A stretch of DNA of 64,000 nucleotides from Clostridiales bacterium (GTDB lineage: Bacteria; Bacillota; Clostridia; Christensenellales; Aristaeellaceae), in NCBI GenBank assembly GCA_015056315.1, contig SVGN01000002.1, positions 106,292-170,291 on the forward strand, written 5' to 3'. The notes beneath the pieces are model-generated. The model searched no databases. It was given only the letters and a program-made list of their open reading frames with translations, and was not told the DNA's origin. Shown here in pieces: positions 6,273 through 28,399 of this stretch (position 1 is the first letter of the stretch; the number at the start of each line of letters is the position of its first letter). A program made the translations under genes and the position numbers.

Positions 6273-7244
6273 TCAACTGTTCAGAATCTCTTGTTTCTTC
6301 TTTTCAAATTCCTCTTGTGTCAGAATACCAGCATCCAGCAAACTTTTGATCTGTTGCAACAATTCCATTTGCTCTTTGACCGACATTTTTGTGGTCTCTG
6401 TACTTTGAGGTTTTGCTTCTTGATTTCTACCTCTTTGAGCATCGACCATCGCTTTATGTTGTGAAACTCTGTCTTGCATGGTGGCATTTTTCTGTCGCTG
6501 AATCTCCTGCCTTCTTTGCTTCTCTTCTAATTCTTCAAGTTCCTTTCTTTCAGCATGTGTCATCTTAGTTTTCAAACCAAATCCTTCTCTGAACTCATTT
6601 CCTATTTCAGTAAATTCGTCCTGAATGTCTCTGATACCAATGTCATCCAAAAACTCATCCATCACTCCAGAAAACAGCCCTTTTTTCTTGTGCTTCCCTG
6701 TCGCCTTTGTGACAGCTTTCGTAACACCTTTTACACTGAAATCGCTTGATTTGAGTAAGTTTTTTGCTGTTGCTCCAACAATTCCCAAACCAGAACCAGC
6801 AGAGACAGGTGTTTCATCTTGAGCCTTTGCTCTAAGTTCTAAGATTCTATCTGTATCTTTCGCTTCTGTCACAATCTCCTGATAATAATTGAAATCATAG
6901 TATTCGGCATCAGGCCCCATTTGGTCATTGATTGCCATAACCAAAACTTTCAATTCATTTGCATCACCAGATTGTAATGCAAAATCTTCTACTTCGCCAC
7001 CCATGTACAGTTCTAATTGCTTCTCACCGTTAGAGGCTTCTCCCTGAATAGCTTGGTCAATAGCAGAATAATCAAATCTCAAAATTCCTTTGAAATTGTT
7101 CAACATTCCATACTGCTCTAAAATCACACTTTGGTTCGTGATTGCCAGAGCATGTGTATATGCTCCCCAAAATCCGTGTCGAACACAAGATGTCTTGAAG
7201 ACAATCTTTTCACCAGGATTCAATGTGTATTTTTGCTTTGCCAT
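6273..7244 (-). CDS. bPH-like / SHOCT-domain protein
   Basis: N-terminal PH-like segment (KIVFKTSCVRHGFWGAYTHALAITNQSVIL); C-terminal SHOCT motif MELLQQIKSLLDAGILTQEEFEKKKQEILNS. Confidence 0.7.
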   Translation of the reverse strand: MAKQKYTLNPGEKIVFKTSCVRHGFWGAYTHALAITNQSVILEQYGMLNNFKGILRFDYSAIDQAIQGEASNGEKQLELYMGGEVEDFALQSGDANELKVLVMAINDQMGPDAEYYDFNYYQEIVTEAKDTDRILELRAKAQDETPVSAGSGLGIVGATAKNLLKSSDFSVKGVTKAVTKATGKHKKKGLFSGVMDEFLDDIGIRDIQDEFTEIGNEFREGFGLKTKMTHAERKELEELEEKQRRQEIQRQKNATMQDRVSQHKAMVDAQRGRNQEAKPQSTETTKMSVKEQMELLQQIKSLLDAGILTQEEFEKKKQEILNS

Positions 7245-7980: not shown

Positions 7981-9108
7981 TCATTTAAGTATACTGATTA
8001 GGTTCTCTCCAATTGCAATAGCATCTTCCTCAGTGTTATCCTTTCCAAATGAGATTCTGATTGTCCCTTTAGCAAAGCTTTCATCAAGCCCAATAGCTTC
8101 AAGTACGTGAGAAGTCTTAGTTGATTTACTGTCGCAGGCAGCACCAGTTGAAATACAGATTCCCATCAGGTCCAATCTGTGAAGCAGTGCTTCACCGTCA
8201 GCATCCTTAAACGATAGGCTCAGATGACCAGGCAAGTGATTTGTGCTTCCATTCCTCAGGAAGGATATGGATTCAGTCTTTAGTTTCCCAATTAAAATGG
8301 CTTCCAGTGCCTCCATCTTTCTTTGGGTAACATCAATGCTGGAGCAGTTTTTCTGAAGCGCAGTAGCCATGCCAACGATAGCAGCAACGTTTTCAGTTCC
8401 TGCACGCATGCCCGCTTCCTGCGCTCCGCCGTTAAGGAACGGGTTTAGTGGTGTTCCATGCTTGACATACAGAAACCCAATTCCTTTAGGTCCGTTGAAT
8501 TTGTGCGCAGATGCAGACAGCATGTCGATGCCAAGTTCTTTAACATCAATGGCGCAATGTCCGATGGCTTGGACGGCATCAGTATGGAACAGTGCGCCTG
8601 TCTCATGAGCAACACTGCAAAGTGCCTGAATCGGTTGGATACTGCCAATTTCATTGTTAGCATACATCACAGAAACCAGTTTGGTATTATCCGTAATGTA
8701 TCGTCTCAATGTTTCTGGTGTAAGGACACCTTCGCTGTTGACTCGCATATAAACAACAGGGAAACCCAGCATCTCTACTGCTTCACAAGCCCGCAATACT
8801 GCATGGTGCTCCATCTGCGTTGTCAAAGTGGCGCGTAAATCGCCATAAACGAAAGCAGTGCCTTTGATAGCCCAATTGTCGCTTTCTGTTCCGCCTGAAG
8901 TAAAGACAATCTCTTCAGGTTCAGCATTGATGCATTTTGCAATGGTTTGCCGCGCTGCCTTAATCGCCGCTTTTGCAGACCTTGAAAAAGAGTATGGTTG
9001 CGAAGGATTGGCATAATCCTCCAGCAAAAAGGGCTTCATGGCTTCAAATGCTTCAGCATCCAGTTTGGTGGTGGCTGCATTATCAGCATAGATCATGCGC
9101 TTCTTCAT
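7981..9108 (-). CDS. cysteine desulfurase (IscS/NifS/DndA-like, class V aminotransferase)
   Basis: YADNAATTKLD, SAHKFNGPKG PLP-lysine motif, active-site loop ISTGAACDSKS. Confidence 0.93.
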   Translation of the reverse strand: MKKRMIYADNAATTKLDAEAFEAMKPFLLEDYANPSQPYSFSRSAKAAIKAARQTIAKCINAEPEEIVFTSGGTESDNWAIKGTAFVYGDLRATLTTQMEHHAVLRACEAVEMLGFPVVYMRVNSEGVLTPETLRRYITDNTKLVSVMYANNEIGSIQPIQALCSVAHETGALFHTDAVQAIGHCAIDVKELGIDMLSASAHKFNGPKGIGFLYVKHGTPLNPFLNGGAQEAGMRAGTENVAAIVGMATALQKNCSSIDVTQRKMEALEAILIGKLKTESISFLRNGSTNHLPGHLSLSFKDADGEALLHRLDLMGICISTGAACDSKSTKTSHVLEAIGLDESFAKGTIRISFGKDNTEEDAIAIGENLISILK

Positions 9109-9305
9109 TTGAACAAAGTGCACCCCGCTTCTTTGAACTCTTCGATTTTGATTTCAAGATCAGATACTTCGCAGCATAGTGTATCCGCAAGGCATTCGAT
9201 GCATTGAAACTCTATTGCTTTTGCATCCAGCAGTTTTTTGTGGAGCGCGATCCAATCCTTCTCCAGTGGCTTGCCACAGATGACGCATTTACTTGCCGCC
9301 TTCAC
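9105..9305 (-). CDS. small Cys-rich (two C-x2-C) zinc-ribbon-like protein in the BREX operon
   Basis: MKAASKCVICGKPLEKDWIALHKKLLDAKAIEFQCIECLADTLCCEVSDLEIKIEEFKEAGCTLFK; ATGA overlap with the desulfurase start; overlaps the brxL 3' end by 17 nt. Confidence 0.75.
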   Translation of the reverse strand: MKAASKCVICGKPLEKDWIALHKKLLDAKAIEFQCIECLADTLCCEVSDLEIKIEEFKEAGCTLFK

Positions 9306-10794
9306 GATACTGCTCCTTTATAGTGATATCAGGAATGGTCATCCCTCTGAATTCACCAGGGTCCATAATGCCAAGCTGTGTTTTAATCACTCGCCGCATT
9401 TCCTTGGCGGGTTCCAGACAATAGGTTTCAAATTCATCGATATTCACGTTGCTGACATCAGTGGCGTCAGGGAAGAGTAATTTCAGATACCCTGTGCAGA
9501 TACGTTTGATTGCCTCTGTATCTCTTGTTGCAGAATTCTTAGGAAGCTGTAAAAGTTGATCCACGACCGCCCTGTATGCAAGCTCTCCACGCAGCATGTG
9601 AATAATCTCGCCGAAGTATTCTGTGTTCAGCGCCCAGCCGTTTGCCTTCAAGCTTTCTTTCATCTTGGGAATATCCCATCCTTTTATGAACCCATGGAAG
9701 CGATCAAGCAATGCTGACTCATGGAAAATATCAGGCAAGTCCATAAACATGTCCTGCGTAACGTTCATCAGGTCAGAATCGATATTGCCAAGCAGCATCA
9801 GCCCTGCGTCACCTATACCACGATAATCTCCAACCCTGTATTCGCCGCTTTCTAGATAACCCTTTAGTGCGCCCTGCATTTCCATCGCATCAGTGAACTT
9901 GATGCTTTGGATTTCGTCAAGCGCAACATAATCATAGCGAGAAACAAGTCCCTGTGTTCTCTTGCTGATATCAAAGAACATTTTAGCTCTGGAGATACTG
10001 CCTCCACTAACAAGCCAGCCATATTTGCTGATTTGTGCGTATACATAGGATTTACCTGTTTCCTTTGGCGCAAGTTCGATTAGATTGACGCGCTTTTCAA
10101 CAAATGGAAGCAGGCGGCTGAGCATCGTCATTTTTTGTTTGGTGCTAACATAACCAGCGGGATTATAGTCAATAGCACTCAGCAGAACATTGATCCATTC
10201 ATCAATGGTGAAGTATTTCCTTGCGCTGATATAGTAGTCCAGATCAATAGTATAGGGACAGAACGGTGAGAAGTCGGTCAGCTTAAAGATATAGTCCTTT
10301 CCGTTGTCATCCAATTCGCAGACAAGTTCAACAATTCCCCAAACTTCTGTAGGAGAAAGCAGATAATCTTTATTGGCTTCGATAACATCCCAATCGACAA
10401 CAGCTTCGCCCTTCTTTTTCGGTACTTCAAAATCTGGTAAAGAGAATAAAGCCCTGCGTGTTTTCATATCAAAATCAATCTTAATCTTCGCCAGAAAACG
10501 CGCAGACTCATTATGCCTGAGAAGGTCAAACAGGTATTCGTTCCACTGCTCTTTGTTAGGTATGACTCTTTTCACGTAGTCTGAAACCTGCTGCTTGTCA
10601 ATCTGTCCTTTTTCGTCAGAAAAGCGCATGACAAGCCAGTCGCGCATGAACGCAGGGAGGCTGAGCGCAGAGAAAAATTTGGAGTTGGCTGAAGACTTAT
10701 AGACCAGCATGTCAGAATAGTATTTCTTCAGCTTCGCCTCATAACTTTGTTCGGTCCGATCCATTCCAAGAGTTGTATACTCATGCTTTTCCAT
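9289..10794 (-). CDS. brxL: BrxL-like BREX AAA+ protein (short form, 501 aa)
   Basis: NLIELAPKETGKSYVYAQISKYGWLVSGGSISRAKMFFD, YDYVALDEIQSIKF, LMLLGNID; adjacent to pglZ. Confidence 0.85.
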   Translation of the reverse strand: MEKHEYTTLGMDRTEQSYEAKLKKYYSDMLVYKSSANSKFFSALSLPAFMRDWLVMRFSDEKGQIDKQQVSDYVKRVIPNKEQWNEYLFDLLRHNESARFLAKIKIDFDMKTRRALFSLPDFEVPKKKGEAVVDWDVIEANKDYLLSPTEVWGIVELVCELDDNGKDYIFKLTDFSPFCPYTIDLDYYISARKYFTIDEWINVLLSAIDYNPAGYVSTKQKMTMLSRLLPFVEKRVNLIELAPKETGKSYVYAQISKYGWLVSGGSISRAKMFFDISKRTQGLVSRYDYVALDEIQSIKFTDAMEMQGALKGYLESGEYRVGDYRGIGDAGLMLLGNIDSDLMNVTQDMFMDLPDIFHESALLDRFHGFIKGWDIPKMKESLKANGWALNTEYFGEIIHMLRGELAYRAVVDQLLQLPKNSATRDTEAIKRICTGYLKLLFPDATDVSNVNIDEFETYCLEPAKEMRRVIKTQLGIMDPGEFRGMTIPDITIKEQYREGGK

Positions 10795-10806
10795 TTGCCA
10801 TTCTCC

Positions 10807-13128
10807 TTAAATATCGAAGTCCTTATTCTTCTTAATGCCCTGAACGATCTTTACCGTCAGCTTTCCAAGAATCACACTGTCAATCACTTGGGCAGTAATA
10901 GAATCTTCTTTTCCATCCACCTGATACTCAAAGGTGTATTCCTTGTCTTTCAGTACGCAGGGGATCTTCTTGCCCTTAATCTGGACAGAGGCATTGGGAC
11001 GCGGCTTACCGCTCACTTTGAAGCGGACTGTAATCAATCCAGTGCCTACCTGTGGTTTGACTTCTTCAGTCAGAAGGTCAATCGTGACCTTCTCTGTTTT
11101 TACAGTGTTTTGAGCGTTTTCAATGACGGCAACAGGTACAAGCCATTCCTCCAGCGAAGCGCCGCCATGGATTTCATCGATAGGTGCGCCAGTTTGTGCG
11201 AAGCGAGAATAATCTGCAAAGATCAGCTTGCCTTCATAATTGATAGCCGTTTCGTATTCAGCACCATCAGGCTTTTGATCGCAGAATCGCCCATATTTGT
11301 AAACAGTTGTGTCTTCAGGTTTAGGCAGCATGTTATCGTATTTTGTATTCCTGATTCGTACAGCCAAGCGGCTTGTTCCATGGTCTGCGGCAATGATGAT
11401 TCTGGAAATTGAACCACCGATGGCACTCAGCGCCCTATCCTTAACGGTTTTCAGGATTTCAAGCTCCTTGATGATGTTTTCGGGATAAACACAATTGGCA
11501 TGTTTATGTTCATCCAACTCTCTCATCGGGGGTTCGACCGTCTGCCTGTTATTCATATAATCTTTGTTGATTTCAGTGACAGATGGAAGGTTGCAGAAAC
11601 CTGCTTTGATGGTAAAACGATACTTTGCTTGATCGATATCAGAGAAAATATAGGCAAGATAATCTGCGTACTCAATGCCCATCCCATCGACAAACAAAAT
11701 CACGGTGTGGTCATCGTACATTTCTGTTACAAGCTGATTCCTTGGCGTAAGCATAAAGACGCTTTCGCCTTTCTGCTGTGCGATTTCTCGAACTTTATTT
11801 ACAAACGTACCTGTTATGCTGTCTGTAGCCTTAAGCCATTTATACTCTTCAAAATAGTCGAAGTGAAACTGTGTCAGATTGGCGCTATTGATAGATACGT
11901 CATTATCCAGATAGTAAGCCAGTTCAGGGTATACTGTCTTTAGAGCAACGATAAATGGTATTCTATCATCAAAAGGAACCCCTTTGATAATATCGAATAC
12001 CTTTTTGCGTTCAATATCTGTCAGGTTAGTCAAACAGGCAATAGCATTGATAGGCTCAATAGCCTGAATCATTTTCCAGAATGCCACAGGGGGTGTGAGC
12101 TTCATGCTTCTCAAAGCTGTTTTCCGTTCTTTATACTTCTGAACGTAATCTGTTGTTCCAACGTATTTGGCGATACCTGTATAGATTTCTGTGACAAAAT
12201 CATCTTCAGATTTGCAGGATGCTGCGCATTCATACAGATAGCCTTTTTTGTTTCGCGCCTTCGTCCACAACCAAAGAATCCATTTTTTGAATGGGGTCAG
12301 AATGCTCCACTGTTCAAACAACTCAAGAGAGTAGCGATTCGTTGTCATGCACAGGCTGCATGCTTCATCAAAGCTTCCTGCTTCAGAAGCTTTTTCAGCA
12401 AGTGAATACCAGTGTTCTTGAGTCCCCATGTCTTCTTGCAAGACTGCTGGAAAGTCATGGATCTGGTCTTTGCACAGATCAAAGGGCGTGACGATCACTT
12501 TGACGTTATCAAAGAAATGGTTCCGTTCAAAGTGAATGGCATTCTGCGTATGTAGCACCAATGGCTTATCAGGATTCTGCTCCCAGTATTGTAGGTAGCG
12601 TTTGAAGCCGATAATTTCATTTCCGCTCACATGCACATTCAAACTGTTCTGGATGATGGTAAGCTGATAATCCTGCTCTTCCCCTGTCTGCAAATAGATA
12701 AAGCTATTTTTCTTACGCGGGTCTGTATTGGGAATGGTTTGCAGCACGCTGCTGATTCTATACATGGGAAAATAGATGTGCATTCTGTGCGCATCATTAT
12801 TCTGGTATTCCATGGATAGTAGATTTGATATAACAGATACGGCGGTTTCAGGATGCACGCGAAGATATTCAGACAATGGAAATACACACAATGTCTGATT
12901 AGCTTTTTTCAGTGTGGAACTAAGCCTCTTGAGATTCGGTGTTGTATCGTCTGTCTCGCAGAACTCGGACAGCAAAAGGCTCTTGTCACTTAAGGATACA
13001 AGGAACTTTTTAACCTCCACCCACATTTGCAGAGAATCCACATTGATAAAGCGAATGGGGTTCAGGTCTGCGCGGTCTCGATCTTCCTTAAGGTTTTTCT
13101 TTAGCTGCTCTACATCCTTGAAAACCAT
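10807..13128 (-). CDS. pglZ: PglZ-domain (alkaline phosphatase superfamily) BREX protein
   Basis: VILFVDGMGIEYADYL and IIIAADHGTSRLAVR motifs; position in BREX operon. Confidence 0.9.
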   Translation of the reverse strand: MVFKDVEQLKKNLKEDRDRADLNPIRFINVDSLQMWVEVKKFLVSLSDKSLLLSEFCETDDTTPNLKRLSSTLKKANQTLCVFPLSEYLRVHPETAVSVISNLLSMEYQNNDAHRMHIYFPMYRISSVLQTIPNTDPRKKNSFIYLQTGEEQDYQLTIIQNSLNVHVSGNEIIGFKRYLQYWEQNPDKPLVLHTQNAIHFERNHFFDNVKVIVTPFDLCKDQIHDFPAVLQEDMGTQEHWYSLAEKASEAGSFDEACSLCMTTNRYSLELFEQWSILTPFKKWILWLWTKARNKKGYLYECAASCKSEDDFVTEIYTGIAKYVGTTDYVQKYKERKTALRSMKLTPPVAFWKMIQAIEPINAIACLTNLTDIERKKVFDIIKGVPFDDRIPFIVALKTVYPELAYYLDNDVSINSANLTQFHFDYFEEYKWLKATDSITGTFVNKVREIAQQKGESVFMLTPRNQLVTEMYDDHTVILFVDGMGIEYADYLAYIFSDIDQAKYRFTIKAGFCNLPSVTEINKDYMNNRQTVEPPMRELDEHKHANCVYPENIIKELEILKTVKDRALSAIGGSISRIIIAADHGTSRLAVRIRNTKYDNMLPKPEDTTVYKYGRFCDQKPDGAEYETAINYEGKLIFADYSRFAQTGAPIDEIHGGASLEEWLVPVAVIENAQNTVKTEKVTIDLLTEEVKPQVGTGLITVRFKVSGKPRPNASVQIKGKKIPCVLKDKEYTFEYQVDGKEDSITAQVIDSVILGKLTVKIVQGIKKNKDFDI

Positions 13129-13142
13129 GAAGAATCCTCCTG

Positions 13143-16100
13143 TCAGCCCTTGAGAATTCGGATACCAAACAGCGGATCGTTTTCAATCAGTTCCTTCAGT
13201 TTGGCTTGTGCTTCTTCGGCGCTCATGCTGTTGATTTTCTTTTTCGCGTCAGCACGGTATTTCATAGCGTAACGTTCCTGCGCGAAAGTGATGATTGCCT
13301 GTCTGCACTGCTGCCTGCGTGCATACCAGTCATAAACCTTGATGCCAGCGACTGCGCGAACCCTGTCACGTAGGTCATCAACAGAGTCAATCACGTATGC
13401 GTAATCGCCGCAGAAGACATCAATGAAGGCTTTCTCACATGCCTTTGTATCGTTGAGGATTTTCAGTTTGTCGCTCTGAATGAATTCGATGGCGTCATCA
13501 ATGCTCTGCTCGTTGGGAAGGTATGAAGTACCATTCAGCGCATCGAAGACCCTTTGTGCGCGAATGCTGTCATCCGTAAACATGCAAAGGATCGGTATGC
13601 CATGCACAGTAGACCAGGCATTCGGAGTCTTGGAATCTGTCGCCTTTTCCCAAGCTTCGTGCATCTTGCGGGTTTTCTTGTTTTTGCGATACTTTTCAAG
13701 TTCGCGCTGCATGAGAATCAGGAATTCATCTGTGGTTTTAAACAACGTTTCGGAAGGCGTGTTGTTAAACAGATGCTCCATTTCATCATCCAGGATAGGT
13801 CCTGAGATGGCTTGCCGCAGCGCAGCAGAGAAGACTTCATACTGACTGTTGAAGAAAGCCAGGAATTCATCAGCCATATTCGCTATGAGCGAAGAAGCCT
13901 CCGCCTTGTTGATTGTGCTATTGTTCTTGATGCTCAAGAGCAGCGACATGATGCTCTTCAACTCAGGTCTTTGTTCCAGAATCCAGCTATTCGGAATCTT
14001 GATGCTGTTCAACTTTTCGACTAACGCCTTTCGCGCATCCTCGTATGTGCGCTGCTTGGTGGAAAGCAGACGATTGATATCAAAGATCAACTTCAAATCC
14101 GTGTACAGATTGTCGATCTGATGATTGGTATCTCCAAGCTGCCACAGGTAAGACGAGTCAGCCGAAAGCTTTTTATTCAGCATTTCCAGGTATTCTTTCG
14201 GCTCTATCTTGAGGTTGCTGGCGATCTGCGTCAGTTCGGGCTTGTACTGTGCAATGTAGTATTCCATGCCTGTACGCATGTTTTCAATCGTCAGGCATTC
14301 AGCAAAAGCGCCATCAATCCCTCTATACTGCATGTAAATGTCATAGATATCCTTGACAACGTTGACTCTTTCCCTGCCGATTTTGGATTCTGGTTTTACG
14401 AACTCACAGAGCAAATCTGCAAGCTGAATCATCGGCTCCCTGTATTCGTGCTCGTATAGTTCTTCTTCAATGTAGCTCTTGATAGACCACAATGGATAAT
14501 TATTGTTGGTCAGATAGATATTGATGTTCTTGGCAATGTCATCAATCGACAGCCTCTTATCCTTGGCGATTTTGAAGATTTCTCCCGTGATCTGGCAGAA
14601 TGCCGCCTGTTCAGGGGTCTGCTTCACAATAAACTGACCATTCGCCTTGGGAAGTCCCTTGATTACACCATAGATTAGTTCACTCAGATCAGTGTAATTC
14701 AAGCTGACTGTGTTGTTGTTGACGTCACGCTTGTAATAGGTGCTGTCAGCAAATTCCTGGAGCAGGAAGCCCATGAGGAATACAGAGCCAGTGTTTGCCA
14801 TCAAGCCAAACGGCGCTTTCTGAAGCACCTTCCAAACATCTGTGATGCTGACCGCAGTGGTATCATTAAATGCCTTGTCAATGACAGCGTTAATGGCAAG
14901 CTTCATCTGTGAAATTACGCAGTTAGGCTTGTTTTCATAATACTTGGGATCGCCCCAGGTTCCTTCCTGCTCAAAGCGGCTTGAGATATTGCGCAGATAG
15001 GCATAGTTGGCAGGAACCGTAATCTTGCCCATTGCCATTTGCGCAACGGTTTCCTTAAAGCCAGACTCGGCGAACAGCTTATCATTCTGGTTGATCGCCT
15101 CAAGTCCATAGGGATAGATACCAGCGTTGATTTCTTTCAGTTCTTTTCTGAGATTGCCTCCGCCTGTTCTCTGCGTTGATTTATCCTCGGCGGTATAAAT
15201 AGTCAGGGAAGTGGTGATCAGCTTACGCAGCCACTCGTTCAGGATGTCTGCAGAAATCTTCTTGGCAAGGTCGAACTGCGGCTTCTGGTTTGGCAGGCTG
15301 GAATAATACTTTTCCTTCGCTTTGCTGGAGATGAACTTATCAAAGAGCACATCTGTAAAAGGCGAAGCGGAGAAATCCACGATCACGCATTTATTGCCAA
15401 CAATGGAATAGATGGTTTTGACTGTGTCTTTGATCTTCTGCTGCTGCGTTTCATTCTGCGCATACAGGTAGAAGACGGGAATATGGTTGGGCGTCTGGTC
15501 CGCGTTTTGTGCTTCGTTCTTCGCGTTGACAGGAGAAACAGGATAAATCTTCATGCGCATTTTCAAGAAATCAGTAGGCAGGAACTGCTCTGTTACCTTG
15601 TATGCACCTTCAGAAATCATCTTTTCAAAGGTGATAGTCTTCTTGGTATCTTCCAGGCATTGCCGCATGCGCTCTTCATCAATAGCGGCAGAGGTCATGA
15701 CATACAGGGTTTCTCTGTTGGCTTCCACCTTGCCCATGATACCCTTGCTGTCAAAGTAATTCAGCGCATCCTCCACGCTGGATTCGATGGGCGTGCCAGC
15801 AAAGCAAGCCTTGATGTTTACCAGTGTAGGACGCATGAGGGAAGTAGCGCCGCTGCGGCTGTCGGCGCTGTTCTTTGCCTGTAGTGCCGCCAGCAGCAGG
15901 GTCACTTTCAACACCCTGCGCTGATTGTCGTTCTGACACATGCTGGCAAAATTGTTGTAATGGCTGATGGTGGTCGTGAAGGCGCTGTCCAGGTCAACGT
16001 TATTGGCATTGAAGAAATAGTCCCACAGGTAATCAGCCGTCAGGTAATTCCACTTGCCGTATTCAAAGGATACGTGCTGGATGAACCATTTAAAATTGGG

Positions 16101-17327
16101 GTGCTTATCATCAGAAACATCTTCACTCAGGAATTTGAAGATGGTTCTCTCGTTGCTGCTGATATCCTTGGCAATGATTCGCAGCAGATAAGCAGCGTAG
16201 GGATGCATAGGCAAGAGCTTGCGGAAATCGTCATCAGCGATGGTAATATCCTTGGCGCGAATGACGCTGACTGCACCCTTGCTTACACCATCCCAAAGTT
16301 CCTCACACCTGTGGTCCCATTCGCTCTTCAGGTCAGGATCATGGTGCAGGGCATAGCCAAGCAGCTTGAAGGCAGTACGCTCCTCCAAACCGATTTGGCT
16401 CATCTTAAAGCGTGCCTCCAGCACTCTTCTCGAATCAGGGTCTTTAATGACCTGCGTCAAACTGGAATGGGTGATCAGGAAGAAGTAGAAACTGATTCTG
16501 GAATCAGCCATAGCGATTTCCTGAAGACCAGTGATGTTGTTCTGATTGTTCTTGAAATACTCAGTGAATTCATCCCAGATGAAGAGCATGGCATAAAGCT
16601 GATTGCCTTTACGCACATCCTCCAGCCAGTTGATCACTTCTTCAGGAGACATGGACCAGTTATAGCCTTCTTTATCGGCAACGTCGATGATGGTATCCAG
16701 CAAGTCCAGCTTGTCATCCAAATCCAGTTCTTCCAAATCACGAATCACGCTCTGCGCAGTGGCGTATTCGGTAAACTTAGCACGATATTTCTGGAATGCG
16801 CCAGCAAAGTTGAAAGCGGAATTGGGGTCCTTCAACGTGGTCAGCACCTTATCCAGCATGCTCGCGCTGCCAGTGTAAGTAAGACCAGCAGCCTGCAAGC
16901 TATCCTTTACGGATTCCACGATGGCGCTGAACAGTTTATTCTGAGAATTCAAGCCAGCAGACGCACTGCGCTGAATCACAAGGATTTGACCCTTTGCGCG
17001 AATGCCTTTAACACGCGCAAACAAATCCATCATCTTGTTTTCAACAAAGTAAGGCTCAACATTGGCAAGGTCATCCTCAAGAATGTGTTTGATGACGAAT
17101 GATGCATACGTTTTACCAGTACCATAAGCGCCGTTCATCCACAGCGAATGGTCTTTGGACTCACTGCTCTTTTCCAGTGTGTCTACTGTTTCCTTCAAAA
17201 TCTGCTTGAAGCTTTCATGCGGATAGAAGGATTGCCACTTGTTGGGATAGATGCGGTCACTGTTTTTGCTGAAAACAGGGATGAAGTTCGGATCGACTTT
17301 GATATAGTCACAATACAGTCTGCTCAT
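13143..17327 (-). CDS. brxC: BrxC/PglY-like P-loop ATPase (1394 aa)
   Basis: SLWMNGAYGTGKTYASFVIKHIL Walker A, YAMLFIWDEFTEYF Walker B; length and context. Confidence 0.9.
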   Translation of the reverse strand: MSRLYCDYIKVDPNFIPVFSKNSDRIYPNKWQSFYPHESFKQILKETVDTLEKSSESKDHSLWMNGAYGTGKTYASFVIKHILEDDLANVEPYFVENKMMDLFARVKGIRAKGQILVIQRSASAGLNSQNKLFSAIVESVKDSLQAAGLTYTGSASMLDKVLTTLKDPNSAFNFAGAFQKYRAKFTEYATAQSVIRDLEELDLDDKLDLLDTIIDVADKEGYNWSMSPEEVINWLEDVRKGNQLYAMLFIWDEFTEYFKNNQNNITGLQEIAMADSRISFYFFLITHSSLTQVIKDPDSRRVLEARFKMSQIGLEERTAFKLLGYALHHDPDLKSEWDHRCEELWDGVSKGAVSVIRAKDITIADDDFRKLLPMHPYAAYLLRIIAKDISSNERTIFKFLSEDVSDDKHPNFKWFIQHVSFEYGKWNYLTADYLWDYFFNANNVDLDSAFTTTISHYNNFASMCQNDNQRRVLKVTLLLAALQAKNSADSRSGATSLMRPTLVNIKACFAGTPIESSVEDALNYFDSKGIMGKVEANRETLYVMTSAAIDEERMRQCLEDTKKTITFEKMISEGAYKVTEQFLPTDFLKMRMKIYPVSPVNAKNEAQNADQTPNHIPVFYLYAQNETQQQKIKDTVKTIYSIVGNKCVIVDFSASPFTDVLFDKFISSKAKEKYYSSLPNQKPQFDLAKKISADILNEWLRKLITTSLTIYTAEDKSTQRTGGGNLRKELKEINAGIYPYGLEAINQNDKLFAESGFKETVAQMAMGKITVPANYAYLRNISSRFEQEGTWGDPKYYENKPNCVISQMKLAINAVIDKAFNDTTAVSITDVWKVLQKAPFGLMANTGSVFLMGFLLQEFADSTYYKRDVNNNTVSLNYTDLSELIYGVIKGLPKANGQFIVKQTPEQAAFCQITGEIFKIAKDKRLSIDDIAKNINIYLTNNNYPLWSIKSYIEEELYEHEYREPMIQLADLLCEFVKPESKIGRERVNVVKDIYDIYMQYRGIDGAFAECLTIENMRTGMEYYIAQYKPELTQIASNLKIEPKEYLEMLNKKLSADSSYLWQLGDTNHQIDNLYTDLKLIFDINRLLSTKQRTYEDARKALVEKLNSIKIPNSWILEQRPELKSIMSLLLSIKNNSTINKAEASSLIANMADEFLAFFNSQYEVFSAALRQAISGPILDDEMEHLFNNTPSETLFKTTDEFLILMQRELEKYRKNKKTRKMHEAWEKATDSKTPNAWSTVHGIPILCMFTDDSIRAQRVFDALNGTSYLPNEQSIDDAIEFIQSDKLKILNDTKACEKAFIDVFCGDYAYVIDSVDDLRDRVRAVAGIKVYDWYARRQQCRQAIITFAQERYAMKYRADAKKKINSMSAEEAQAKLKELIENDPLFGIRILKG

Positions 17328-17340
17328 GGTTGCTCCTCCC

Positions 17341-19689
17341 TCAGATCAGCTTCAGTACGTCAATTGCCTTCATACCCTTTTTGCCAGCAGGCAAATCAAT
17401 GTTTTCCATGATACCCTTGTTAAAATCCACCTGGATGTATTCGCTGTAGTCGTTCGCAAGTCCTTGCAGAATCGGCTTTAATGTGTCAGCTTCAACGCCG
17501 AAGATCAGGCGCGGACTCATAGCTTCTCGCTCCTCGCTGTCGTCCAGCAGATCACTGAGCGTGAAGCTGTACAGACCCTCCATGTGTTCAGCGAAGAGGT
17601 AGAGCGTGTAGAGGATAACGAGGGGATCAGCTTCATACCATCTTCCACGTGATATACTGGTTATTGTTTTTCCTTTTGTTTCACAATCGCCCTGCAGTAA
17701 TAACCAGCCAATGGGAGACAATCTCAATGTCTCCTTTAGCGAACTGAGTGCATTTTTCTTGACAGTGGGAGAGTATTCATCTCCAAGCAGTATCGGCAAA
17801 TCCTCTGCTGAGTATGTGCTGTCAGGCTCAATCTTCTTAACATACCAAGTAACAATTGGAGATTCGTAGCAAAGGTTGGCAAATAACACACCCCAGGTAA
17901 CAGGAGAATCGCTCCCCAACTCAAGCAGTTTTTCTCCTAATGGTGTAATTGCATTGTTGTCAGTGATTCCTGCTTCTTTAAGCCAGGTTTTAAAACCGAT
18001 AATCATGTACTTGCCCATTCGGTCATTTGCCCAGAAATCGTCAAGCAATTCAAAGTATAGTTCAAGCCATTCTTGTCTGAACCCAAAATTCTGATATCTA
18101 CTAATGTTTTTTGCGCTCATGTTGCTTCCGCCTCCTGTTATTCCAAGTGATCTTGCAGCAATACAACCCTTTGGAGAATCTAAACACGCTTCACAGTGCC
18201 TGCAGTTCGTGAAGACGATATCGTCTTTCGTAATGGTTAAGGCATTGAAAGAACACTCTGCTGCACATTCTTTGCAATTGACACAGTACGCTGCTTTACT
18301 AAGAGCGTTTTTAAACAAATACATAAACCGCACTGATGATGGCGATCTTATCAGCGCAGGCATGGTCAATACTGTGGCTTTTCCTTCAGTGTGCACAGTA
18401 AACTCAACGTTGATGTCTTTATATCTTATCGAATACTTATCATCAGATACCTGAACGAGCGGTCCAATGGCATGCATCCATTTATCCCACTTATAATTAC
18501 TTTCAACGATGACAAGCTTTACAACCTCGCTCGTCTTGATTTCGGTAATCTTGTTATTACCGATGATAAGCTCTTTCCCACCTATGCGTGATTTCCAACC
18601 ACCAGTTTGTAGGTACTTCTTTTTTTCCTCCTCATTGGGAAAATGCTTTGTAATGCTATTGCTGACGATGCTCAATAGCGGCTCAACTTCTGATGGCACA
18701 ATGTGATTTAGCAAGCATTCATACCATTCGGATGCCATGGGGCATAACTTACAGCCAACGCGGTAAGAACCATATCTATACAGATCGTTTAGCAGCAAAT
18801 CATTTTGGAGGATATACAAGAACAGTTCACAAGTACCCCATTCCAGGATAGGGCTACAATTGTACTGAACAGCATGCTTGTTACCGTCAGAGACCATGGA
18901 ATAAGTTGCTCTTGCATCGCTTTCTTCTGCACGAACTCCATCAAACACCATAACCTTAAACGGTTTGTTGCTATTCGGATATTTTGCTTTGTAGATTTCC
19001 TTCAGTTTTGCAATAGAGGGAGCTGTCTTATGTACGCTGCAACACCAACGCAGTTTTCGCGCTGGAAATCCTATCTTGTTCCACGATTCCACAGCATCAA
19101 AATCTGCTTTGGCTGTATACCATTCAAGAGAAGACCAACGTTTCTTTGCTTTCTGAACAGCTTCATAGGTGGTGGATACTTCCATAGTTGTATCACCAAA
19201 TATAACCACAAAGCTATCATGTGGAAGCGCACGCTGAACGATATCTAACATTACGATTGAGTCTTTTCCACCGCTATAAGCGACATAGAACATGCTTACC
19301 TTTTTGCTGTACTCTAAATATGTATTATATACAGTTTTCAAAGTCCGTTGAATTAAACCATTCATGATGCTTTCATTCTTCTTTAGCATCAATGGTACAT
19401 CAACAGGTTCGAGAACCAAGTTGGGTTTAACATTGCGCAGTTCAGGTTTTTCAAATAAGCCGCCACCGACTGCTTCTCCTACAAGTTCTCCTTTATAGAA
19501 ATATCTGCGTGTTTCAGCCCATAACAGAGGCAATTGACTATCTGGGAATTGCCAGTTGTACTTCTTGTCAAAACCAAGAAAGCGAAGCTCTTCAAAGTAA
19601 ACTGGTCGAACTTCCTTGGCAACGCCCAAGATTTTTGATGGCAACAATAAATAGCCGCCAGTCTCAGAATCCCACTCGTAATTGTACAT
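17341..19689 (-). CDS. brxP: BrxP-like protein: PP-loop PAPS-reductase domain + two Cys clusters (ferredoxin-like) + DUF4007-like C-terminal domain
   Basis: VAYSGGKDSIVMLD PP-loop; RWCCSVHK; CVNCKECAAEC and CRHCEACLDSPKGC clusters; C-terminal region from NISRYQNFGFRQEWLELYFELL reads as DUF4007. Confidence 0.85.
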   Translation of the reverse strand: MYNYEWDSETGGYLLLPSKILGVAKEVRPVYFEELRFLGFDKKYNWQFPDSQLPLLWAETRRYFYKGELVGEAVGGGLFEKPELRNVKPNLVLEPVDVPLMLKKNESIMNGLIQRTLKTVYNTYLEYSKKVSMFYVAYSGGKDSIVMLDIVQRALPHDSFVVIFGDTTMEVSTTYEAVQKAKKRWSSLEWYTAKADFDAVESWNKIGFPARKLRWCCSVHKTAPSIAKLKEIYKAKYPNSNKPFKVMVFDGVRAEESDARATYSMVSDGNKHAVQYNCSPILEWGTCELFLYILQNDLLLNDLYRYGSYRVGCKLCPMASEWYECLLNHIVPSEVEPLLSIVSNSITKHFPNEEEKKKYLQTGGWKSRIGGKELIIGNNKITEIKTSEVVKLVIVESNYKWDKWMHAIGPLVQVSDDKYSIRYKDINVEFTVHTEGKATVLTMPALIRSPSSVRFMYLFKNALSKAAYCVNCKECAAECSFNALTITKDDIVFTNCRHCEACLDSPKGCIAARSLGITGGGSNMSAKNISRYQNFGFRQEWLELYFELLDDFWANDRMGKYMIIGFKTWLKEAGITDNNAITPLGEKLLELGSDSPVTWGVLFANLCYESPIVTWYVKKIEPDSTYSAEDLPILLGDEYSPTVKKNALSSLKETLRLSPIGWLLLQGDCETKGKTITSISRGRWYEADPLVILYTLYLFAEHMEGLYSFTLSDLLDDSEEREAMSPRLIFGVEADTLKPILQGLANDYSEYIQVDFNKGIMENIDLPAGKKGMKAIDVLKLI

Positions 19690-19690
19690 T

Positions 19691-20401
19691 TCAATTGCCT
19701 ACCTTTATTGCTGTTTGCAGTTTGTCCGTTTCAAAGTATCGCGGATTTGTATGCGCGAACTTATGACAAGTTGGACATATTAGAATCAAGTCGGACGGTG
19801 ATAAATCGTCTTTTGGTGTGTTTTGCGACAAAGGCAAATTGATGTGCAATTCTATCAATTCACTCGCATGCAGTCCATAGACAGCTCTTAAATCCTTTCC
19901 GCAGATTCGACACCTCGTCTGTTGCTGTATCTTGGCTTCTTTCAGCACTGCATTTATCGTTTTATCGGTACTTTCAAGATGGCAGTGATAAGAAGGAAGC
20001 AGAGCTCCAGCAATAAAACCATTGAATTCTGTTCTTAGGGGAAAAACCGTTCTTGCAAGTCTTTTGATAGCAAGAGAGTATGCGTGCAATTCTGCTTTTT
20101 TTTCGCCATAGTATTCCAGCACTTTTCTCTGAGCAATAGAGCCATGCCCGAATTTGCTGCTTGTATTTGGATCAGCCCATGCCACATTTGCCAAACACAT
20201 TTTCATACCATCAATACTTCGGAATGAAGAGTCAGCTTTTAGCTCCTGATAGAAGGGCAAAGTACGCATTGCTTTGCTCAGGTCAGCAACCATTTCTTCT
20301 TTTGCCGCCTTGCTCTCAACATCCTGCAAGCAATAATACGTGTCCACCAAGAGCAGAACTTCATCCATGGTCAGGGGAGGCATGCGTTTCTTTGTTGTCA
20401 T
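19691..20401 (-). CDS. McrA-type HNH protein with N-terminal specificity-like domain
   Basis: CRICG...LIELHINLPLS...DLILICPTCHKFAH; N-terminal FRSIDGMKMCLANVAWADPN block as in HNH restriction-type proteins. Confidence 0.75.
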   Translation of the reverse strand: MTTKKRMPPLTMDEVLLLVDTYYCLQDVESKAAKEEMVADLSKAMRTLPFYQELKADSSFRSIDGMKMCLANVAWADPNTSSKFGHGSIAQRKVLEYYGEKKAELHAYSLAIKRLARTVFPLRTEFNGFIAGALLPSYHCHLESTDKTINAVLKEAKIQQQTRCRICGKDLRAVYGLHASELIELHINLPLSQNTPKDDLSPSDLILICPTCHKFAHTNPRYFETDKLQTAIKVGN

Positions 20402-23400
20402 TGTTCTGCCTCCTCTCGCCTGACCAGTCTGCCATCATCACCCATGTAGTAGTATTGTGCGCTTTCAAGGAAGTTGGGCAGCTTTACATCCACAAATCCA
20501 GCCTCGATCAGCCATTCGCGCATGTCAGCTTTTCTTGTAAAGGTGCCTTTTTCGTATTCCTCGCCGATGATCTTTAATAGCATTGTCTGGAAATCATAGT
20601 TTGCATATTTTTTGCTAACATACACAACCAGCGATCTATGTGAGCGGCTGAATGGATAAGGCACATAATCCAGCCGATTGCTGCTCAACACAATGCTTTC
20701 CAGCAGATAGGGCGTCCATGCTATATCAATGGATGGATACCAAATGAAGTCCTGTACCTTGCAGGAAGGCAGGTAGTCGTTGGCTTCTATTGCATCGCTC
20801 AGAATGTTCAGTGCTTCCTCCACCACGTCATCGTCAATGCCTGCGAGTGAACGCTTCATCAGCGTGTTTTCATCTGAACGAACATAATCAGGCGCAATCA
20901 GTCCCATAAGGTGAGGCAGCGAAACATAGTGAATACCGCGCTCATCCAGCAAATCCATCAATTCATCGATGGCGATCTCAGCATAAGGTTCCAGAACGCT
21001 CAGGATAACGCCGCGGTTGGTCATCTCAACATCGTCAGAATTGGCGATGTAGGGTCTGTTGAACCTGAAATTATACCTGAACATGTGGCTGAGAACTGCA
21101 AACAGCACATCGCGGTTGTGGATTTCGTTTCGATCCATGAATTCAGGAAACTGAACAGAGCAATCGTCAAATACTTTGCGTATATTGACGGGCAAATCGC
21201 GCGTCACCTCAGTCAGGTAAGCTATCAGCGGCGCATAATCTGTCTCCTGAATGTGGAACTGAGAGGCGTGAATATAATACCCTCCGTCAATATTGAAGAC
21301 GTTGGGGCAACGCGCAACAACCTGCCCCAGAGCAAATTCGTTCAGGGCAGGGAATTCAGCATAAATCTCAGTTTTATGGACCATACCACGATCACGTACG
21401 AATGCGTCTAATTCATCTGTGGGAGAAACGTTGGCATCTTTCGTGATATAGTCTCGGTACAGATAGTAATCAACACGTTTATTGACGTTGTTTCCAAACT
21501 GCTTCATCACGCCTTGCAGCAAGTAGTGGTTAGATATCTGTGTTCCTGCCAGCTTATCTTTGAAAGCCTCAAACAATTCAATATACGTAATCGCATTCTT
21601 GGGGCTATCCGCTATGTATTGGTCCACTTCATCCAGGATGCTTTCATCGATTGACACCATGGAAGGATGGATGTACTTGCCTCTGTCGCACAGTACGCCT
21701 ACTGCGTTGATTTTTGCGTCCAGAGCGCGCTGTGTCATGCGGCAGCTACCCTCGCCGAAGACTTCACGAGCATATTCCTGAAAACGCTTAGCGTCTGTTG
21801 CATCGCTGACCTTGAAACCGTTGACAAAGCGGTTCTTCAAAAGCCAATCGCAAATGAAGACTACAGTAGGCTTGTGCTCGCTGTATAGTGTTCCAAAGAC
21901 TCTGTAACGCTGCTTAATATCGGCGCGAATTTTCTCTTCCCAAACGCCTTCTTCCTCCACTGCATGCCGAATAACCTCCTCCAGCTCATCTTTGAAGATG
22001 TAAGAAGGAAGAGCATCAACGATTTTCGCTGCTACATCACCATCTTCATGCTTGAAAACAATGGCTTTATACTGCTTTTCATAGCTGTATGCTTTGCGGT
22101 CGAAAGCGCCGTCTTCAATACACGCCCACAGAAGATCAAGTTGGTCGCTGTTCTCTATGCATGTAGCAACTTCATTCTTGTGGATCATCAAATCACCATC
22201 GAGCATAGCATGGATATATCCAATAACATCTCTGCCAGCATGGCGCAGACTTGTAGAAAACCTTGAAATAGCTTTTGCTTCAATTTGGCGGACGCGTTCT
22301 CTGGTGATATCCAGCACATCTCCAACTTCTGCCAGTGTACGTCCTTCCTGCCTCAGTCTTAATACAACTGGAACGCGATCTGTTGTCATCGTATATTCAT
22401 ATGCTTTTTCTAATTGCTTTGAAATGCCGCAGCCAATATCATCAGTAAAGATGCGTAAGCTGTTAATTAAAGCTATCTGCTCATCTGGCTTGTCTTCAAG
22501 GTACTTTTCTATAGTCTGGGTAGCGTCAATGAAACAATCATTTTCAGTAAATACTGTGTTCAGATCAATCGGTGTTTTCTTCTTTGATGCGGCGACAAAA
22601 GGCAGCACATGAAGAGTCATACTAATCCCATGATCAGCTACACGACTGACAATTTGAACGATCTGTCTATGCAATTCTTGTTGCTTAACGTAATCATCAA
22701 ATACAGAACATAGACTACGCATTTTGTCAGGCTCTTCCAACGCCATCAGGCACAGTTCCTCGCCCAGCACCTGATACGCTTCCTCCAGCAGCGCTGCATA
22801 ATTCTTTTCAGCATCAGTCAGTTCTGAAGCATCGTATTCTATTCCAAGCGCAATAGATTCTGCAATCCTTATCAGCTTTTCATTGGCTTTGGCAGCAGGG
22901 ATAGTTGCCTTCGCCTTGTCGGCTTCTGTTACTGTGTTGATTGCTTGAGGGGCGGCTACAAATTTTTTGCACTTGTTTACAATTTCAAGCAGAGAAGTTT
23001 TCCCCATATTTGGGTATTCACTGATTTCTACTATTGTCGCTGAAAACAAATCGTGCAGCGTGTTTCGATGATTTCCGTTGAGTCGATTATAGGGTCTGGT
23101 AGACAATTTAAGCTCGCTAATGCTCCTATCAGCATAAGAAGCATTATGAGGAATGCCAAGAGCTTCATAAATTGGCGCCTCTACATTGATGCCTCTAAGC
23201 TCTTCCAGATAGTTAAACCACGCCTTTCCTGAAGAGAATATTTTTTGTGGAGCTACTATTGATGCGGATGTGGGTTGATCATCAGCCTCATTTATAGTTT
23301 CGTTGCTCTCGTTGGTCGATTCTTCTGTGAGGGAAGGCTCAGCCGCATCGAATTCTTGTTCTTCAGGAATGGCTTCAACAGGCTCTTCTTCAGGTTCGGC

Positions 23401-23721
23401 TTCTTCAGATGTATCTTCAGCATTCTGAACATCTGCAATGGGCTCAACAGCTTCGGTTTCTTCAATGGCGGCAGGTTCATCAACAGACAATTCAGACTGA
23501 GACTCTTGCTGCTGTATTTCTGTGTCAGGATCGTAGCTGTCAAGCGCATGCCGAATGTTTGCAACATAATCACGAGTAGCGCCATGCTGTGTTCTGAATG
23601 CAATAAAGTCGGATGTGGTGAGTTCAGATATAAACTGCTTGTCAAGAGACACGCAAAAAACAACAAAATCAGCGTATTCAGTTTTCAATGCATCTCTGAT
23701 TCTGGCATTTTTCCGCGTCAT
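20398..23721 (-). CDS. 1107-aa protein: acidic N-terminal linker, RNAP alpha-CTD-like HhH domain, sigma-70 region-4-like HTH, winged-helix-like C-terminal part
   Basis: LSTRPYNRLNGNHRNTLHDLFSATIVEISEYPNMGKTSLLEIVNKC (alpha-CTD-like); GRTLAEVGDVLDITRERVRQIEAKAISRF (sigma4-like). Confidence 0.85.
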   Translation of the reverse strand: MTRKNARIRDALKTEYADFVVFCVSLDKQFISELTTSDFIAFRTQHGATRDYVANIRHALDSYDPDTEIQQQESQSELSVDEPAAIEETEAVEPIADVQNAEDTSEEAEPEEEPVEAIPEEQEFDAAEPSLTEESTNESNETINEADDQPTSASIVAPQKIFSSGKAWFNYLEELRGINVEAPIYEALGIPHNASYADRSISELKLSTRPYNRLNGNHRNTLHDLFSATIVEISEYPNMGKTSLLEIVNKCKKFVAAPQAINTVTEADKAKATIPAAKANEKLIRIAESIALGIEYDASELTDAEKNYAALLEEAYQVLGEELCLMALEEPDKMRSLCSVFDDYVKQQELHRQIVQIVSRVADHGISMTLHVLPFVAASKKKTPIDLNTVFTENDCFIDATQTIEKYLEDKPDEQIALINSLRIFTDDIGCGISKQLEKAYEYTMTTDRVPVVLRLRQEGRTLAEVGDVLDITRERVRQIEAKAISRFSTSLRHAGRDVIGYIHAMLDGDLMIHKNEVATCIENSDQLDLLWACIEDGAFDRKAYSYEKQYKAIVFKHEDGDVAAKIVDALPSYIFKDELEEVIRHAVEEEGVWEEKIRADIKQRYRVFGTLYSEHKPTVVFICDWLLKNRFVNGFKVSDATDAKRFQEYAREVFGEGSCRMTQRALDAKINAVGVLCDRGKYIHPSMVSIDESILDEVDQYIADSPKNAITYIELFEAFKDKLAGTQISNHYLLQGVMKQFGNNVNKRVDYYLYRDYITKDANVSPTDELDAFVRDRGMVHKTEIYAEFPALNEFALGQVVARCPNVFNIDGGYYIHASQFHIQETDYAPLIAYLTEVTRDLPVNIRKVFDDCSVQFPEFMDRNEIHNRDVLFAVLSHMFRYNFRFNRPYIANSDDVEMTNRGVILSVLEPYAEIAIDELMDLLDERGIHYVSLPHLMGLIAPDYVRSDENTLMKRSLAGIDDDVVEEALNILSDAIEANDYLPSCKVQDFIWYPSIDIAWTPYLLESIVLSSNRLDYVPYPFSRSHRSLVVYVSKKYANYDFQTMLLKIIGEEYEKGTFTRKADMREWLIEAGFVDVKLPNFLESAQYYYMGDDGRLVRREEAEQ

Positions 23722-23730
23722 GTTGGTCCC

Positions 23731-23960
23731 TCACAATTCAATGCTGTTAAGCAGGTTTTTGAGTGATTTCAATTCTTCTGCTGAAAGTGGACACCTTTCC
23801 CAGATTTCGTACGGTCAGCGTTCCATGCTCTGATGTCATACTTGGCAATGTTATCGTCCCACTGTACGATGTTGAGTTCCTTCTTCCAGGTTCCGCTTTC
23901 TGAAATCGTGCCGATAGTCTGTACGATTTCAAATGCGATCTTGGACTGGGTTTCGCTCAT
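23731..23960 (-). pseudogene. PC4/YdbC-family transcriptional coactivator-like gene with apparent 1-nt frameshift near 23784-23790
   Basis: MSETQSKIAFEIVQTIGTISESGTWKKELNIVQWDDNIAKYDIRAWNADRTKSGKGVH then, in another frame, (F/L)SAEELKSLKNLLNSIEL-stop at 23731. Confidence 0.75.
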
Positions 23961-24199
23961 TTGCCGACAGTCCTTTCTATCTGCTTTTCGGGTTCAGGAT
24001 CATCAACATGCTCTATGATGTCGCCATAATCCACTTTCAATGTAGAGCAGATGCGGTCCAGGATTGGCAGAGCAACACATTCATCCTTGCTCAGCTTAGT
24101 CAGGGTATTGGATGAAATGTCTGCCGCACGCCGCAAATCTGCCTTGCTCATCTTCCTGTCAACGAGCAATTTCCAGAGTTTGTTGTATCGGACAGCCAT
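23957..24199 (-). CDS. XRE-family HTH transcriptional regulator (first gene of BREX operon)
   Basis: MAVRYNKLWKLLVDRKMSKADLRRAADISSNTLTKLSKDECVALPILDRICSTLKVDYGDIIEHV; AGGAGGG RBS; ATGA overlap with YdbC-like start. Confidence 0.9.
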   Translation of the reverse strand: MAVRYNKLWKLLVDRKMSKADLRRAADISSNTLTKLSKDECVALPILDRICSTLKVDYGDIIEHVDDPEPEKQIERTVGK

Positions 24200-24229
24200 T
24201 GGAACCCTCCTCAAAAAGATGTTGCCAGA

Positions 24230-24258
24230 AGTATACCATTTTGGCACTGCGATTACAA
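24230..24258 (-). promoter_or_regulatory. Putative sigma-A promoter of the BREX operon (-35 TTGTAA, 17-bp spacer, -10 TATACT)
   Basis: Read on minus strand: TTGTAA-TCGCAGTGCCAAAATGG-TATACT, ~30 bp upstream of the XRE start codon. Confidence 0.75.
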
Positions 24259-26858: not shown

Positions 26859-27082
26859 GCTTCCTCCGTGATATGAAGTACGCTTCACATGAAGTCAGCT
26901 TCATATTACCATGGCAAAGCGATACTGTCAAGGGGATGCATTGCATGCCCGCATCAACCCACAGACCCTGCCAAAAAGGGCGTATATACAACCGTTTTGC
27001 TGCTTGTTGTTCCCCTTTCCCCTATGGTACAATAGCCGAAGCAAAATACCCCCATTTTGGCTTAGAAAGGACGATCCCCCAC

Positions 27083-28399
27083 ATGAAGAAACTCCTTCTG
27101 TTCCTGCTGTGCGCCGTGCTGTGCCTGGCGCTGTGCAGCTGCTCCGGCAACGGCAGCAGTGCACCTGCCGCCCCCAAGGCCGATGCTGCCACCCCCACTC
27201 CGGCCCCCACCGCCACCCCCGAACCCGCTTTTGAGCCTCTGGATTGGGCCGCCGTTACCGAGGCTCCCGCTGCAAACTTTACCTACGAGCTCTCCTGGGA
27301 CGAAGAAAGCTACAGGATCACCGCTTATAACGGCACAGATGCCATCGTAAAGGTGCCTGCCGCCATCGAAGGCAAGCCGGTGACCGATCTGGGCGAGGAT
27401 CTGTTCCGCAGCAACGAGACCATCACCCATGTATACCTGCCCGATACCGTACGCTACATGGGCGACAGCTGCTTCAACAACTGCCCCAACCTGGTGCAGC
27501 TGCACCTGCCTGCCAACCTGAGCGAGATCGCCCAGGCCACCTGCAAGGAGTGCCGCAAGCTGGTGCAGGTGGATCTCCCCACTGCGCTGACGAGCATCCG
27601 CCAGTCCGCCTTCTCCGAGTGCATCTCCCTCAAGGAGATCGAGCTGCCTGCCACCACCACCTACATGGAGAAAGATGTCTTTGACGGCTGCCGCAGCCTG
27701 ACCAGCTTCAAGGCCCCCGGCCTGAAGCAGATGGGTCAGTGCGCCCTGCGTGACTGCGTGAGCCTGACCGAGCTGGTGCTGTACGAGGGCATGGGCCTTT
27801 TCAACGGCAACGCCCTCAACGGCTGCACCAGCCTGACCGATCTGACCCTGATGCCTCTGACCGAAGAGAGCAGCTACAGGGTCGTGTTCGAAAACGGCAT
27901 CCTCTACGATGTATACGGCACTGAGGAGCCCGAATACACCGCCCTGCGCATGCTGCCCGGCTACCCCGCCGATGCGGTGCAGCTGCACCCCAACACCACC
28001 AAGCTGGAGCACAGCGTATTCTACGGCTGCCAGCTGCGCTCCATCGAGATCCCTGCGGCGGTGGACACCATCCCCGGCAACGCATTCGTTCAGTGCAAGA
28101 ATCTGGAAAGCATCACCTTTGCCCCCGGCAGCCAGCTGCGGCTGCTGGAGATGAACTGCTTCTCCGGCTGCACCGCGCTGACCGCCATCGACCTTTCCTT
28201 CGTTACCGAGCAGCTGACCATGTACAGCGGCGCTTTCGGCTCCAACGATGCCCTGACCAGCGTGAAGCTGCCCGCTAATGTAAATGCCACCGATCCGGCT
28301 GATTACATGTTCCGCAGTGCCAAGAACGTGGTCATCAGCTATCAGGGCAAGGATTACACCTACGACCAGCTCAGCGAGCTGAAGCTGGTGCAGGAATAA
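27083..28399 (+). CDS. leucine-rich-repeat (BspA/LRR_5-type) lipoprotein
   Basis: Lipobox LALCSCSG; repeated ...LPDTVRYMGDSCFNNCPNLVQLHLP... units. Confidence 0.85.
   Translation: MKKLLLFLLCAVLCLALCSCSGNGSSAPAAPKADAATPTPAPTATPEPAFEPLDWAAVTEAPAANFTYELSWDEESYRITAYNGTDAIVKVPAAIEGKPVTDLGEDLFRSNETITHVYLPDTVRYMGDSCFNNCPNLVQLHLPANLSEIAQATCKECRKLVQVDLPTALTSIRQSAFSECISLKEIELPATTTYMEKDVFDGCRSLTSFKAPGLKQMGQCALRDCVSLTELVLYEGMGLFNGNALNGCTSLTDLTLMPLTEESSYRVVFENGILYDVYGTEEPEYTALRMLPGYPADAVQLHPNTTKLEHSVFYGCQLRSIEIPAAVDTIPGNAFVQCKNLESITFAPGSQLRLLEMNCFSGCTALTAIDLSFVTEQLTMYSGAFGSNDALTSVKLPANVNATDPADYMFRSAKNVVISYQGKDYTYDQLSELKLVQE

Follow-up and report, generated by a model that had tools for sequence, protein, structure and literature searches.

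The minus-strand run of genes at 7981-24199 of the window (the whole stretch of 64,000 nucleotides that was analysed) is very probably a complete, horizontally acquired type 4 BREX anti-phage operon, which would make phosphorothioate marks on self DNA with a local cysteine desulfurase as the proposed sulfur donor. The genes are co-oriented and tightly packed in a single run. They are listed below from the first gene of the run to the last.

23957-24199, minus strand: Cro/C1-type HTH regulator, first gene of the run (PF13443, 67.8 bits).
23769-23960, minus strand: PC4/YdbC-like ssDNA-binding protein (PF02229, 20.6 bits, below the cut-off of 25).
20398-23721, minus strand: DNA-binding protein of 1107 aa with an alpha-CTD-like HhH domain, a sigma-70 region 4 HTH and about eight tandem winged-HTH units (PF03118 and PF04545).
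19691-20401, minus strand: protein of 236 aa with an N-terminal helical domain and a degenerate HNH-like zinc module (PF01844, 18.1 bits, below the cut-off of 21.4).
17341-19689, minus strand: BrxP, with a PAPS-reductase/PP-loop domain, a ferredoxin-like Cys cluster and a putative DUF4007-like C-terminus (PDLC02510, 774 bits; PF01507).
13143-17327, minus strand: BrxC/PglY ATPase, related to SspC (PDLC02485, 371 bits).
10807-13128, minus strand: PglZ of the type-4 subfamily (NF033445, 400 bits, cut-off 140).
9289-10794, minus strand: BrxL in its short, type-4 form (TIGR02688, 432 bits, cut-off 329; PDLC02505, 680 bits).
9105-9305, minus strand: small zinc-finger-like protein of 66 aa with CxxC...CxxC...FKxxGCxLF (alignment of 22 rows).
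7981-9123, minus strand: cysteine desulfurase, NifS/IscS/DndA-like (PADLOC DndA 432 bits and SspA 428 bits; Aminotran_5 275 bits).

From the gene of the 1107-aa protein through the desulfurase gene, neighbouring genes overlap by up to 19 bp or stand up to 14 bp apart. The initial annotation had named a BrxP-like PP-loop protein, BrxC, PglZ, BrxL, a Cys-rich mini-protein and a desulfurase with an intact active-site Cys, and profile scores and motifs confirmed all of them as co-oriented genes on the minus strand. Three-frame translation showed that the C-terminal part of the PC4-like gene lies in a different frame, which reflects a frameshift or an assembly error. A frameshift would suit a locus that is decaying and inactive, but none of the eight reading frames that start with the 1107-aa gene and end with the desulfurase gene is interrupted, and the active sites of the enzymes are intact. 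We consider decay quite unlikely.

Judged by its gene content, the locus is a complete and ordinary type 4 BREX with a published desulfurase accessory. BrxP carries SGGKDS at residue 139, GCKLC and the ferredoxin-type CKECAAEC, and SGGKDS is present in every BrxP of the brxP-locus census described below. The Walker A motif of BrxC is GAYGTGKT, and both the VDGM and the DHGT motifs of PglZ were found. The short BrxP model PDLC02511 (265 positions) aligned to BrxP residues 530-780, the region in which passages of PMC12839542 place DUF4007, a DNA-binding component of type 4 BREX that is often fused to BrxP; among the Pfam matches listed for the protein, none was to DUF4007. When the library was scanned with the BrxP protein, only seven near relatives were found.

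Because the gene order is repeated on six independent contigs (L003-L007 and L009, with a per-protein identity of 31-94%), chance is excluded for this arrangement. The same order was seen again in sampled Bacillota as well as in these near relatives. The operon lies in a low-GC island at approximately 6.2-26 kb (43-47% GC, compared with 57-61% in the flanks), and brxP is absent from all five other genomes of the same genus that were compared. These two observations indicate that the operon was probably acquired horizontally. A SHOCT-domain protein (window 6273-7244) is found at the downstream edge of the island, and a candidate ORF with a BspA-type leucine-rich-repeat match (window 26873-28399, plus strand) is found just beyond it.

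The locus was compared with three known systems. It resembles type 4 BREX, as described in passages of PMC12839542, in having BrxP with a putative DUF4007-like end, BrxC, type-4 PglZ, BrxL, the small Cys protein and the desulfurase in one operon; the upstream genes for the 1107-aa and the 236-aa HNH-like proteins are additional here, and neither was found named in the main-text passages of that survey. With Ssp (SspABCD) it shares the desulfurase, a PAPS-reductase (SspD-like, 35 bits) and a BrxC related to SspC (54 bits). However, it has PglZ and BrxL in place of SspE or SspFGH and is far closer to the BREX models; a PADLOC scan of the operon proteins gave no match to SspE or SspF/G/H. The likeness to Dnd (DndABCDE) is the transfer of sulfur from a desulfurase to a PP-loop enzyme. 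The initial annotation had called the locus a candidate BREX/Dnd hybrid, and this label was rejected: BrxP scored 774 bits as BrxP but 21 bits as DndC, and the passages of PMC12839542 already publish the combination. No DndD-like or DndE-like protein was found among the operon proteins.

A phosphorothioate mark for type 4 BREX is reportedly the claim of Yuan et al. 2024, taken here from papers that cite it. According to passages of PMC11931770, three gene families are known to produce phosphorothioates in DNA, and brxPCZL (BREX type 4) is one of them; those of PMC12839542 describe the class of type-4 PglZ with BrxP as phosphorothioate-based. The models for the BREX-1 MTase (NF033452) and the Eco57I-family MTase (PF07669) had zero matches across the genome, which is 80% complete. 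With BrxP in place of such a methylase, a type-4 PglZ, and an operon that also encodes BrxC and BrxL, the locus has these features of type 4 BREX. The earlier statement that the window holds no PglX-type methylase was therefore borne out and now extends to the genome; because the genome is 80% complete, this absence is strong but not final. An incomplete assembly could in principle lack an unlinked methylase that places an ordinary N6-adenine mark, with BrxP as an accessory. The zero matches to either model and the published description of this PglZ and BrxP class stand against that explanation, which we regard as highly improbable. The self-DNA mark at this type-4 locus is likely to be sulfur in the form of phosphorothioate. 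The proposal that a desulfurase feeds a PAPS-reductase-like enzyme to give a sulfur-based BREX mark agrees with both papers, as far as their passages go; it is sound in outline and already published.

We propose the following mechanism. The desulfurase (7981-9123) would take up the sulfur of cysteine in persulfide form. BrxP would then activate the DNA phosphate with ATP and insert the sulfur, giving a phosphorothioate on self DNA, and BrxC and the putative DUF4007-like DNA-binding end of BrxP itself may help this insertion. PglZ and BrxL would then target unmarked phage DNA. That the locus is active and that the local desulfurase acts as donor in vivo is inferred, as are the chemical details and what the small and upstream proteins do.

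The desulfurase keeps SAHK with the PLP Lys and STGAAC with the active-site Cys, and desulfurases in the PDB match it with E values down to 1.6e-96. Its score against TIGR03235, the DndA equivalog, was 336 bits and did not reach the cut-off of 480, which is counted against the main explanation. It fell below every NCBIfam desulfurase cut-off shown and is classed as NifS/IscS/DndA-like. The census took in 26 brxP loci, the window included, in which BrxL was present and 1.6 kb or more of downstream sequence was available; L084 and L085, which hold other PAPS-reductases, were left out. A desulfurase was found downstream of brxL in 12 of the 26 loci (46%), far from the near-complete lack at other brxP loci that the initial annotation had set as a refuting outcome, and the catalytic motifs were kept in most desulfurases of the census. 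This frequency agrees with PMC12839542, whose passages give 255 of 457 type-4 taxa (56%) as carrying a cysteine desulfurase and name it a possible sixth core component. The novelty that had been suggested for a desulfurase in type 4 BREX is thus not upheld, since these passages, published in 2026, present it as a frequent component. In the close relative L006, an extra stop-free ORF (20600-21733) separates the small-protein gene from the desulfurase gene.

The genome of approximately 3 Mb holds eight class-V aminotransferase matches, and from this number we estimate that random placement within 2.5 kb would occur in about 1% of cases. The locus desulfurase has up to 63% identity to desulfurases at other brxP loci but at most 47% to the paralogues of its own genome, and it is nearer to the desulfurases of most other brxP loci than to any of these paralogues. 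In the tree, one branch with weak support (68/47) separates the brxP-linked desulfurases from their own paralogues, and a nine-member core that includes the desulfurase of the window has a support of 99/99. The weak split is also counted against the main explanation.

The desulfurase may instead serve mainly to mature the Fe-S clusters of BrxP, at its ferredoxin-like and PAPS-domain Cys, or be redundant, with the sulfur coming from housekeeping desulfurases. In favour of this, BrxP contains at least two Cys clusters, a local desulfurase is missing from about half of the loci, and at least three of the other class-V aminotransferases in the genome are desulfurase-like, with the HK and Cys motifs. 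Passages of PMC12839542 explain the loci without a desulfurase by housekeeping enzymes, for which IscS, NifS and SufS are proposed, and IscS can replace DndA in vitro (PMC10853773). However, the repeated position directly after brxL and the small protein, with 45-63% identity among distant loci, suggests a selected partnership, and we hold the maturase or redundancy explanation to be possible but doubtful. The local desulfurase remains our preferred donor. As about half of the type-4 loci are without a local copy, it may be dispensable, and the word "dedicated", which the initial annotation had used for this donor, is not established in view of those loci and of the other desulfurase-like enzymes in the genome.

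The 66-aa protein is more widespread than the desulfurase. In an alignment of 22 copies, conservation reaches at least 90% for its two CxxC pairs and for the C-terminal FKxxGCxLF, and the Cys residues are near-invariant. It adjoins brxL in 20 of the 26 census loci; in nine census loci it occurs although no desulfurase is present, whereas the desulfurase never occurs without it. Because it is commoner than the desulfurase, the small protein probably serves the core machinery and not the desulfurase alone. In passages of PMC12839542, too, the type-4 desulfurase is often found together with a small zinc-finger protein. Zinc binding is probable for the 66-aa protein, as is a helper role for BrxL, BrxP or the desulfurase, and the extra conserved Cys would allow a putative role in sulfur relay. 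The other genomes give independent support that the desulfurase, and especially the small Cys protein, belong with type 4 BREX, which supports the sulfur self mark. The small protein, with its wide occurrence, and the tandem winged-helix protein upstream are the main leads from this analysis.

The AlphaFold2 model of the 1107-aa protein had a pLDDT of 76 and a pTM of 0.47, at which the placement of domains relative to each other is unreliable. By our reading of the order of helices and strands, approximately eight tandem winged-helix units follow residue 520. A Foldseek search with this model returned UFL1 and SelB (tandem winged-helix proteins), the RNAP alpha-CTD and sigma-4, of which only a UFL1 match passes E 0.001. 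The domain order resembles that of PglW of type 2 BREX, in which, according to passages of PMC12839542, three winged HTHs come after an alpha-CTD-like helical domain. This likeness is architectural only: the 1107-aa protein has no kinase but has a sigma-4 HTH and about eight winged HTHs. The protein is probably a DNA reader or a transcriptional regulator or gate of the operon. No mention of it was found in the main-text passages of PMC12839542 on the relevant terms.

A profile built from near relatives only matched the ORF preceding brxP in eight further loci (E 8e-195 to 3e-9) and no other ORF in those loci. This ORF is either the immediate upstream neighbour of brxP or is separated from it by the 236-aa gene, as in L088. 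The family counts are taken from this profile; the iterated matches in 26 loci were not relied on. Searches with the 1107-aa protein, and not with brxP, yielded L104, L108, L109, L112 and L114. L104 (6945-19900) is a Dnd/Pbe-like phosphorothioate locus with PbeA, a PbeC-like protein, DndB, DndC and DndD, and is headed by a 1334-aa relative of the protein. In L109 a relative adjoins PDC-M33A, B and C, and in L108, L112 and L114 the relatives have neighbours of similar size. Because relatives adjoin both a Dnd/Pbe and a PDC-M33 locus, the family may be used by several defence systems. We tentatively suggest, at somewhat less than even odds, that it is an unrecognised component of many type 4 BREX in Bacillota and a modular DNA reader or transcriptional gate across several defence systems. 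If the upstream protein is indeed a common reader or regulator, a single sensing module would connect sulfur-based BREX with Dnd/Pbe and with candidate systems.

The model of the neighbouring 236-aa protein had a pLDDT of 87. A structure search with it gave nothing significant; a weak Cap5 match is in line with the sub-threshold HNH match and proves nothing. The first iterated HMM of this protein drifted onto the large upstream protein and was discarded, and with a model made from the four genuine copies the part common to both proved to be the N-terminal domain alone. This N-terminal domain occurs inside the large upstream protein in L097, L073 and L083.
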